A model generated the notes under the pieces. That model was not told the origin of the DNA. It did no database searches and saw nothing but the letters and a program-made list of their open reading frames with translations. This document shows, piece after piece, positions 37,887-52,739 of a stretch of DNA of 64,000 bases. Every line of letters starts with the position of its first letter. Positions within the stretch are counted from its first letter, which is position 1. A program made the translations under genes and the position numbers. Source of the DNA: Bacillota bacterium (GTDB lineage: Bacteria > Bacillota > Sulfobacillia > Sulfobacillales > Sulfobacillaceae); NCBI GenBank assembly GCA_023511625.1, contig JAIMBD010000003.1, forward strand, positions 186,001-250,000, written 5' to 3'.

Positions 37887-38984
37887 TCACGGGCCGGGGA
37901 ACCGTGGCCGACCGCCCGGCAACGCAAAGGCCGGCAGTCGGCGGCCCGTGATGGCCGCTGTCACGGCGTCGCCGCTTTGGCCTACCGGGCGCACCCGCAA
38001 TAGCCAGCGCGACCCGTCGGGGCCCGTCAACACTGCCTCCAGCCCGCCCTCGCGGACCGCGACCGGACCGCGATAGACGAGGTGTTGCGCATCCGGTCCG
38101 AGCGCGGCAGACCCGCCGGTCACCACCCATCCGTCGGGCGCCGGTTGGCCCTGCAGGACTAGGGTCAAAGTGGCGTCGACGGGGCTCGGGAGCGAAAACG
38201 TAAACGACACAGCCGAGTCGCCTGGCTCGACGTTTGCCGTGGCCGTGCCGGTGGTGGCGAATTCGAGGGGCAAGGACCAGCTTGGGCTAGCGGCCGGGGG
38301 CACAGCCACAGGAGGTAGCCGGGAGCCGTTGCCGTGACCGTTATTGGCCACCTGGTTCCATCCCGGTCGAAAGGGCCCGGTGGCGGCCCAGGTCGTGCCG
38401 CCGAGGCCAAGGAGGGCCAAGAGGGCAATCCCTACCGGCCCGAACCCACCGCGCCCGGCCTGAACCACCCGCCATCCGGTCAGCCCCAGCACTGCCGCGG
38501 CGGCCGCGGCGTACATCACTGCCATCCACCCGGTGGCGGTATCGCTGCCGGTGCCAAGCCCGTGGACCGTGGCCAACGCCCAGATAAGAAAGGTGGCGTA
38601 GTGAATCCGCCGCCACCAGCGAAACCCGATGTGTGGGCGCAACCAAGTCGACAGGGCCACCACCGCGCCGAGGTCGAACGCCACCACGCCGAGCGCCATC
38701 CACAGGGGCCGGTAGTGGCTGGCCCCGGGGACCCAGATCTCGACGGCAGTAAAGGCCGTGAAGGGGTCGATCCACACCGTCAGGATGTGAAGTGCCGTGA
38801 AGAGCCCGCTCCACAGCAAAAGCCGCTGGTGCAGGTCGTCGTTCAGCATGCGCGGCCAGCGTTGCGGCGACTGCCAGCGCAGGCTGAGCAACAACCCAAA
38901 GACCACGGCCAGGGTCAACAGCGCATAGGCCGTGATCCCTCCTGCTCGCGCCAGGATCCAGTCCCACTCAGCCCACCACGGCAT
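37887..38984 (-). CDS. Ferric-reductase-like haem membrane protein with an exported C-terminal domain
   Basis: 365 residues from ATG 38984, after AGAGGAGG on the minus strand; it overlaps apbE by 17 nt. Residues 10-200 form about six membrane helices. His52 and His66 lie in one helix and His128 and His141 in another, the spacing of a two-haem ferric-reductase/YedZ (MsrQ) type domain that carries electrons across the membrane. After the last helix (about 185-200) comes a domain of about 160 residues rich in beta-strand (EFATTGTATANVEPGDSAVSF, ending in GGRPRFPGP), probably outside the cell. It has no family I recognise. No NAD or FAD domain is present, so electrons must enter from quinol or a partner. 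Confidence 0.75.
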   Translation of the reverse strand: MPWWAEWDWILARAGGITAYALLTLAVVFGLLLSLRWQSPQRWPRMLNDDLHQRLLLWSGLFTALHILTVWIDPFTAFTAVEIWVPGASHYRPLWMALGVVAFDLGAVVALSTWLRPHIGFRWWRRIHYATFLIWALATVHGLGTGSDTATGWMAVMYAAAAAAVLGLTGWRVVQAGRGGFGPVGIALLALLGLGGTTWAATGPFRPGWNQVANNGHGNGSRLPPVAVPPAASPSWSLPLEFATTGTATANVEPGDSAVSFTFSLPSPVDATLTLVLQGQPAPDGWVVTGGSAALGPDAQHLVYRGPVAVREGGLEAVLTGPDGSRWLLRVRPVGQSGDAVTAAITGRRLPAFALPGGRPRFPGP

Positions 38985-39936
38985 GCCGCATCGCCTCCTC
39001 TGGGGGTTCAGGCAGGCCAATCCATTGCACGGAGCCATCGGCCAGGGCCAAGACCCCGCCCAGGCGCCGTGCCTGGAGAAACGCCGCGCCGGCAGCGGCG
39101 CCTAAAATCCAGGCCACTGTCGCGGCCACGTCGGCCTCGGCGCACCGAGGCGCCACCACGCTACACCAAACCAAGTCTGAGGTGGCACAGGTGCCGGCTC
39201 GGGGATCAATCAGATGATGACGCCACCGGTCGCCTTGCCGCCACCGGCGGTGCTGGGGGCCGGAGGTGGCGATGGCCCCCTGCCGCAGCACCAGTCGCTG
39301 CCCCTGGGGCAACGCCACCACCCATCCCGAAAGTCCCGGCGGAGTCCCGGCCACGGCCAGGTCCCCGCCGGCGCTGACCAAGGCCGGCGTGGCTCCCTGG
39401 GCGGTCAGCCGGCGCAAGGCCTCGTCGACGGCCAGTCCTTTGCCGATGCCGCCGAGGTCCAGAGTGGTCTTGGGCGGCAGAAAAAGTCGCGCGCCGCCTC
39501 GGTCGACCATCACGGTGCGCCAGGTTCCCCACACGGTGGCCGCTCGGGCTTGGGGGGAGGGTGCCGGCAAGGGATCGGTCAGGGCAGCAAAGGGGCGGTC
39601 GTACCCCAAGGCGACCAAGACTCCGCCCACGGTGGGGTCGAAGAGACCGCCCGTGGCCTCGGCCGCCGCGAGGGCTTGAGTCACCGCCCAGCCCAACAGC
39701 GGCGGGACCCGGTGCCAGTGGCCCGGTCCATGATTGACCCGAGAGAGCGCACTTTGGGGGTCAAAGCGGCTCAACACCGCCTCAAAGCCTCCGAACACTT
39801 CCCGCAGCACACCGAGCGCGCGCGGCTCCGACGATGCCGGAACCACCGCTTCCACCGTGGAGCCCATGGCCCCAAAGGTGATGCGGGTAAATCCCGCCGG
39901 AGTGAGGAGGCTTTGGGTCTCCGACTCAGGAGACAT
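38968..39936 (-). CDS. apbE: ApbE family FAD:protein FMN transferase
   Basis: Attaches FMN through a phosphoester to Ser/Thr of exported redox proteins. 322 residues. Motifs are FGAMGSTVEAVV, the LDLGGIGKGLAVDEAL segment, SAGGDLAVAG and the metal/FAD site HHLIDPRAGTCA. There is no obvious signal peptide or lipobox, which is unusual for ApbE acting outside the cell, so it may act in the cytoplasm or the start may be mis-set. It lies between a small membrane protein gene (11-nt overlap) and a haem membrane protein gene (17-nt overlap), a tight three-gene operon. Confidence 0.92.
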   Translation of the reverse strand: MSPESETQSLLTPAGFTRITFGAMGSTVEAVVPASSEPRALGVLREVFGGFEAVLSRFDPQSALSRVNHGPGHWHRVPPLLGWAVTQALAAAEATGGLFDPTVGGVLVALGYDRPFAALTDPLPAPSPQARAATVWGTWRTVMVDRGGARLFLPPKTTLDLGGIGKGLAVDEALRRLTAQGATPALVSAGGDLAVAGTPPGLSGWVVALPQGQRLVLRQGAIATSGPQHRRWRQGDRWRHHLIDPRAGTCATSDLVWCSVVAPRCAEADVAATVAWILGAAAGAAFLQARRLGGVLALADGSVQWIGLPEPPEEAMRHAVVG

Positions 39937-51560: not shown

Positions 51561-52661
51561 TTACACCGACCATGGGCGGTAGGAACCCAGGAAGGCATCT
51601 TGGGGGTAGCCGCGCACCTCCCAGTACCCCAGCCGATCGTGCCGACCGCAGTCGATCTGGACCAGCCATTTGATCGACTTGTAGCCGTACATGCCGGGCA
51701 CTACCAGTCGGACGGGGTAGCCCTGCGCGACCGGCAAGGGTCGGCCATCCATGGACCAAATCACCAAGGGGTGGAATTGGCGGATCTGGCCTGCGGACAA
51801 GCTCTCGGTATACACGCCGTCCCCGGACAAAAAGCGGACCCAGGGAAACCGTCCCGGATCCCAGCCTGCTCGGCGAAGCAGCTCCGCCAGCTCCACTCCT
51901 TCCACCTGCAAGCCCGGCACGGCCCACCCGGTCACGCAGTGGAACGTAAAGCGGCGGCGAACCCGAGGCATCGCCTTGAGGGCCGCCAGGGACCACTCCT
52001 TTCGCGGTGCGCCGGCTACTGTCCACTTGAGGCGGTACTGGACCGCGGAAATGGTGGGAAAGCCACCGACCACCGTATAGGGGATAAATCCAGGCAGGGC
52101 CTCGATGGGGCCAGATTGGGGCGGAGGTTGGATCAAGGGACCGGTCGCGACCCGCACGAGATCCGGCAGCGCCCCCAAGGCCGGCAGGGACACCAAGGCG
52201 GCCCCGGCCCAACGCAGAAAGCGCCGGCGCGACCACCGCCGACCGGCCGGCGTGGCCGACCTTCGCCGCCGCGGCCGCTGTTGCACCAGATGCCACAGCG
52301 TCCACAGGACCAAGGCGGCGGCAAAGCTGGCGTGTCCTACTGTGGCCAAGGCGTGGACCCAAGTTGGGCCCACCAACAGGCCGATCCCGGTGACACTCAG
52401 TCCCGCAAGCCACGCGAATCCCCAGCGGGCCCAGCCCGCCGATTGGGGGGGCCAGGGGAAAAAGCGCGCCGCCCACCCCACCAAAGCCACTCCGTAGGCC
52501 ATCCCTCCGAGGTCGTGCAGGGCTTGCACCCAGGGCAACGCGCCGCCCAACGCCGTGCGCCAGTTCGGCAAGAACAGCCCGAGCCCGGTAAACGTCAGCC
52601 CGGCCAAGATGGCGGCGTGCCGCCAGTGCCGGCGTCGCCACCGGGACGCCTCCACCGCCAC
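51561..52661 (-). CDS. Membrane cytochrome b fused to a sulfite-oxidase-family molybdopterin domain
   Basis: 366 residues from GTG 52661 behind AGGAAGGAGG on the minus strand. Residues 16-126 form four membrane helices with His at 49, 103, 110 and 124, consistent with a b-type cytochrome. A twin-arginine motif SRRRFLR (144-150) precedes a fifth hydrophobic segment (151-166), like a Tat signal in the middle of the protein. Residues about 190-366 are a sulfite-oxidase/MsrP-type Mo domain with the Mo-ligand Cys242 in FHCVTGW and GMYGYKSIKWL near the end. Separate MsrP and MsrQ proteins do this job in E. coli (repair of methionine sulfoxide); here donor and catalytic domain are one chain. The substrate is unknown. 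Confidence 0.85.
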   Translation of the reverse strand: MAVEASRWRRRHWRHAAILAGLTFTGLGLFLPNWRTALGGALPWVQALHDLGGMAYGVALVGWAARFFPWPPQSAGWARWGFAWLAGLSVTGIGLLVGPTWVHALATVGHASFAAALVLWTLWHLVQQRPRRRRSATPAGRRWSRRRFLRWAGAALVSLPALGALPDLVRVATGPLIQPPPQSGPIEALPGFIPYTVVGGFPTISAVQYRLKWTVAGAPRKEWSLAALKAMPRVRRRFTFHCVTGWAVPGLQVEGVELAELLRRAGWDPGRFPWVRFLSGDGVYTESLSAGQIRQFHPLVIWSMDGRPLPVAQGYPVRLVVPGMYGYKSIKWLVQIDCGRHDRLGYWEVRGYPQDAFLGSYRPWSV

Positions 52662-52739
52662 GGGCCCACCTCCTTCCTGGGGGAACCCCTGCCGAAGAGC
52701 CCGCCGCCGATAGAAAAAGGTCTGGCCTCTTTGCCTGTT

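Follow-up and report, generated by a model that had tools for sequence, protein, structure and literature searches.

A one-chain cytochrome b and molybdenum oxidoreductase with an internal twin-arginine motif: a probable Sco3746-type protein of dual Sec-Tat assembly

Our analysis concerns a protein of 366 residues encoded in the window, the whole 64,000-nucleotide stretch of DNA that was analysed, in which a four-helix membrane cytochrome is followed by a twin-arginine motif, a fifth transmembrane helix (TM5) and a molybdenum (Mo) domain. Judged from its sequence and its homologues, this protein very probably belongs to the Sco3746 family and is assembled by the Sec and Tat machineries in turn. 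The Sco3746 (Q9L0V6) family was found in a search for internal Tat motifs by Tooke et al. (2017, eLife; PMC5449189), who reported homologues from actinobacteria, firmicutes, chloroflexi and euryarchaeota and tabulated C8WRE4 of Alicyclobacillus acidocaldarius. The proposed membership is based on a shared architecture and on Alicyclobacillus relatives common to both sets. Proteins of this type are among the few membrane proteins built jointly by two export machines, and any of them lends itself naturally to testing the handover from Sec to Tat. The features of the gene and its product are as follows.

51561..52661, minus strand: complete gene for the fused diheme cytochrome b / Mo oxidoreductase, 366 aa (open reading frame, PF00174 match, AlphaFold2 model)
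52662..52678, minus strand: ribosome-binding site AGGAAGGAGGTGGGCCC, immediately before the GTG start (read from the sequence)
52281..52661, minus strand: four-helix cytochrome domain, aa 1-127, FdnI/Ni_hydr_CYTB type, with conserved His 12, 49, 110 and 124 (profile and fold matches, alignment)
52212..52232, minus strand: internal twin-arginine motif SRRRFLR, aa 144-150 (alignment of homologues)
52143..52229, minus strand: TM5, aa 145-173, weakly hydrophobic, proline-kinked and predicted to be Tat-dependent, with R170 after its core (dG estimate, AlphaFold2)
51621..52064, minus strand: Oxidored_molyb domain, aa 200-347, whose invariant C242 in CVTGW aligns with the E. coli MsrP cysteine (PF00174, alignments)

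The open reading frame runs from 52661 to 51561, from a GTG start to a TAA stop, and the strong Shine-Dalgarno sequence that precedes the GTG makes this start firm. A first-pass annotation had described the product as a membrane cytochrome and a sulfite-oxidase-type Mo domain in one chain, and this description is borne out by the match to PF00174 (Oxidored_molyb, E 6.7e-28) and by the helices and fold of an AlphaFold2 model. The model, built from an alignment of 45 homologues and with a mean pLDDT of 85.5, has helices at residues 2-30, 32-67, 76-97 and 100-127, then a broken or kinked helix at 145-173, and C-terminal to this an alpha/beta Mo domain. A search of the 64-kb window for Rfam elements and tRNA genes found none.

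Residues 144 to 150 (S144-R145-R146-R147-F148-L149-R150) read exactly SRRRFLR, which had been proposed to be a Tat signal inside the protein. The loop before TM5 is rich in arginine, with 11 such residues between positions 126 and 150, and an RR pair by itself would therefore mean little. Columns 145-146 are nevertheless RR in all 59 fused homologues (56 distinct, 39 of them at <70% identity), and F148 and L149 are mostly kept, while the rest of the TM4-TM5 loop differs in both sequence and length; because the pair is fixed within a loop that varies around it, its conservation exceeds chance. In every split homologue examined, where the Mo protein and the cytochrome are separate chains, the RR pair is as far from the Mo domain as in the fused chains, and sits within an ordinary N-terminal signal. 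The assignment of an internal Tat-type motif thus holds, with no loss of the pair in the 56 distinct fused sequences. Four loci at first taken for fusions (L048, L058, L061 and L064) proved to be split forms whose reading frame extends upstream by chance, and were left out of the final fused set. One fused homologue (L116, G048:C16:4900-6600) has a very long Pro/Ala-rich TM4-TM5 loop, with the RR still in place.

The distribution of positive charge, with 11 charges in the TM4-TM5 loop, five at the N-terminus and none or one in the outer loops, predicts that the N-terminus and the TM4-TM5 loop lie inside and the Mo domain outside. Structure prediction gives four helices, then TM5, then the Mo domain, and no result puts the Mo domain in the cytoplasm. 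The estimated dG of TM5 is +0.7 in the window protein, with a family median of +0.4 against -0.5 for TM1; these values are approximate. At least one positive charge follows within 20 residues of TM5 in 46 of the 46 genuine fusions tested, R170 being that of the window protein. The loop between TM4 and the RR pair spans 13-41 residues among the fusions, and the minimum in the study of Sco3746 was eight (PMC5449189). The same estimate gives TM4 an equally low hydrophobicity, so this property alone fails to single out TM5. Nor is a weak TM5 a strict rule, since three members from Aneurinibacillus and Peribacillus (L067, L076 and L080) have a hydrophobic TM5, with an estimated dG of -0.7 to -1.7, yet carry two to four positive charges after it; these three are natural tests of the Sec-release model.

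The published work on Sco3746 bears directly on this arrangement. Like the window protein, Sco3746 has five TMDs, an RR directly before a weakly hydrophobic TMD5 and a C-terminal Moco domain (PMC5449189), together with conserved membrane histidines and positive charges after TMD5. When MBP or AmiA was placed after its five TMDs, export required the RR and Tat; insertion of Sco3746 into the membrane occurs without Tat, TMD5 being Tat-dependent and the remainder Tat-independent (PMC5449189). The window protein differs in lineage and in details, and the present analysis adds H12, in helix 1, as the conserved fourth histidine and the link to FdnI. The idea of dual Sec-Tat insertion is thus right but not new, since Tooke et al. 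described and tested the family and its two-machine assembly in 2017, and the earlier remark that this mode of insertion would stand out in a molybdoenzyme is outdated (PMC5449189). The actinobacterial Rieske protein Sco2149 offers a second parallel, with Sec-inserted helices, an RR and a Tat-dependent last helix bearing a cofactor domain; it differs in having three helices and an Fe-S domain.

We propose that helices 1-4 would be inserted by Sec, with YidC if needed, and that Sec would release the weakly hydrophobic TM5, with the RR before it and positive charge after it. TM5 would then stay in the cytoplasm until the Mo domain has folded and acquired Moco, after which Tat would move the folded domain out and leave TM5 in the membrane, so that the Mo domain of the finished protein would face the outside. 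The genome carries one tatC and one tatA, as well as moaA and two moeA genes. The dual route is supported by the invariant RR, the positive-inside charges, the weak TM5, the presence of both tat genes and the published experiments on Sco3746.

Two other routes were weighed against this one. The Mo domain might remain in the cytoplasm, the RR pair being a chance product of the arginine-rich loop, and the same genome does encode a PF00174 paralogue with neither a helix nor an N-terminal RR that is presumably cytoplasmic. This is highly improbable given that the pair keeps one position in an otherwise variable loop, that it is retained in the N-terminal signal of the split forms, and that export of the Sco3746 reporter depends on RR and Tat (PMC5449189). 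It is also conceivable that Sec inserts all five helices and passes the Mo domain across the membrane unfolded, to gain Moco outside, as the hydrophobic TM5 of some relatives might allow. Moco insertion takes place in the cytoplasm, however, and an all-Sec route is scarcely tenable alongside an invariant RR. Avoidance of Sec and dependence on Tat have, in addition, been published for the Sco3746 family (PMC5449189). We therefore retain the handover from Sec to Tat as the very probable route for the window protein.

On its sequence matches the cytochrome is of the FdnI/Ni-hydrogenase type (PF01292), without a match of the MsrQ type. A profile built on the N-terminal domain gives a match to E. 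coli FdnI (1kqf_C) with E 5e-5, and PF01292 matches 28 of the 45 members, the best at 6e-7, while the window protein alone gives no PF01292 match. The MsrQ-type, ferric reductase-like family PF01794 is absent among the 25 families listed for the 45 members. The AlphaFold2 model has four helices before TM5, against six in the MsrQ-type cytochrome, and its top membrane-protein fold match is again 1kqf_C (Z 8.3, rmsd 3.6, 132 aligned residues), a modest Z for a helical bundle; no MsrQ structure appears among the fold matches of the model, which by itself is no evidence.

The first-pass annotation had counted four histidines in this domain, and there are indeed four that are conserved, although H103 is not one of them, being kept in only three of 56 sequences with Arg in most relatives. 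H49, H110 and H124 are invariant among the fused homologues, and the fourth is H12, placed at the start of helix 1 and present in 55 of 55. In the profile alignment H12, H49, H110 and H124 align with FdnI histidines 18, 57, 155 and 169, of which we take 57 and 155 to hold the outer heme and 18 and 169 the inner one. Because of this pairing we predict, by analogy, that H49 and H110 are the ligands of the outer heme and H12 and H124 those of the inner heme. FdnI, the cytochrome b556 of E. coli formate dehydrogenase-N, thus resembles the window protein in its four helices and four aligned heme-ligand histidines, and in carrying electrons between a Mo enzyme on the outside and menaquinone, a path that we infer here for the window protein. 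It differs in being a separate subunit that serves an unrelated Mo enzyme of the DMSO reductase family via an Fe-S subunit, whereas the cytochrome of the window protein is fused directly to a SUOX-fold domain. Electrons would pass between Mo, the outer heme (H49/H110), the inner heme (H12/H124) and menaquinone, both the pairing and the quinone link being predictions, and would most likely run from menaquinol to an external oxide. This assignment gives the family a concrete route for hemes and electrons that can be tested.

A parallel with MsrPQ (YedYZ) was drawn by Tooke et al. for their family (PMC5449189). MsrPQ and the window protein probably have in common an MsrP-like Mo domain, from which the dimerization domain is absent, and a heme b membrane protein as presumed quinol partner. 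The window protein differs in being one chain instead of two, in its four-helix FdnI-type cytochrome instead of the six-helix MsrQ, and in its shorter Mo domain. The earlier suggestion of a fusion of MsrPQ functions is half right: it probably holds for the Mo pocket, which resembles that of MsrP, and fails for the cytochrome, which is of the FdnI/PF01292 type; in the split form of the family, too, the partner of the Mo protein is a cytochrome of PF01292.

The reading of the substrate and of the direction of electron flow depends on few aligned columns of the Mo domain. The alpha/beta domain has fold matches to SorA, SoxC, chicken sulfite oxidase and MsrP at Z 19-20.5. The columns of SorA Arg55 and His57 correspond to positions 194 and 196, which among 56 sequences have no Arg or Lys at 194 and no His at 196, and hold mostly Pro/Tyr/Leu/Ile and Thr/Ser respectively. 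MsrP aligns through the Cys loop without a large insertion, while SorA requires two, and the motif around the invariant C242 is CVTGW against CVEAW of MsrP; the NCBIfam MsrP model scores 41 against a cut-off of 207. No C-terminal dimerization domain is present, the protein ending at residue 366, 19 residues past the PF00174 match. The missing SorA residues and the MsrP-like Cys loop, with the absence of sulfite oxidase activity in E. coli YedY/MsrP (PMC4228395), slightly favour oxide reduction over sulfite oxidation. Our tentative preference, at a little under an even chance, is for an enzyme that uses menaquinol to reduce an external oxide, for example methionine sulfoxide, on which MsrPQ acts.

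The opposite direction, in which a sulfite:menaquinone oxidoreductase would oxidise sulfite outside and send electrons inward to the quinone pool, seems somewhat unlikely, though it would suit a Sulfobacillus-like acidophile lineage, in which a published comparison found no periplasmic sulfite oxidase. SorA, chicken sulfite oxidase and SoxC are among the best matches in sequence and fold, and SorA Tyr236 is retained as Y352. A Sulfobacillus genome paper, moreover, set aside a 'possible sulfite oxidase' with Mo binding and a Tat signal because a heme domain was not seen (PMC4062416), and the fused family has such a domain; if that protein belongs to the Sco3746 type, the missing heme domain is its own N-terminal half. 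The consistent lack of Arg or His at the SorA Arg55/His57 columns in 56 sequences weighs against sulfite, as do the missing dimerization domain, the scores of NCBIfam sulfite dehydrogenase models far under their cut-off, and the attribution of sulfite oxidation in S. acidophilus TPY to SoeABC (PMC5114278). As a speculative possibility, the window protein may be a single-chain extracytoplasmic oxide reductase driven by quinol, or else a sulfite:quinone enzyme, and may fill the role of MsrPQ by means of an unrelated cytochrome of the FdnI type; that cytochrome would have been placed before an existing Tat signal rather than joined by simple fusion of neighbouring genes.

This last point draws on the split forms of Actinomycetota, found in Acidimicrobiia, Nanopelagicales, Streptomyces and Kitasatospora, in which a Mo gene with a Tat signal lies just before, or overlaps, the gene for a cytochrome of PF01292. 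The order from Mo gene to cytochrome gene is the reverse of that in the fused chain, so simple read-through would not yield the fusion. Split and fused forms offer a clean comparison of two-chain and one-chain solutions. The gene in the three Streptomyces/Kitasatospora plasmid records examined is of the split form.

Of 61 relatives, close and distant, 42 contain a match to the window protein, and within its own taxonomic family and order most such matches are full length. Across the class, 84 of 151 genomes match the family profile in some form, many at full length and others by the Mo domain alone. Around the fused loci no conserved neighbours hint at a substrate, the real neighbours being common to few loci, and a neighbour cluster common to 49 loci was rejected as a clue because it consists of antisense reading frames. 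An IS3-type insertion that includes orfA and orfB interrupts the orthologue close to the C-terminus in one near-complete genome from the same taxonomic family (L112, G005 C1:3430600-3434000, positions 618-1783).

The genome that carries the window holds further genes of related type. The second PF00174 protein, of 186 aa (G000:C8:249305-249838; L103 3767-4327, minus strand), has neither a helix nor an N-terminal RR, is presumably cytoplasmic, and provides a natural within-genome comparison. A third PF00174 match (L110, G000:C14:121237-121494) is partial, covering profile positions 69-161, and may be a remnant. Within the window itself, at 37887-39936 on the minus strand, a 383-aa membrane protein has a weak ferric-reductase (MsrQ-like) match of 22.6 bits, under the cut-off, and its gene is adjoined by one for an ApbE-like FMN transferase.
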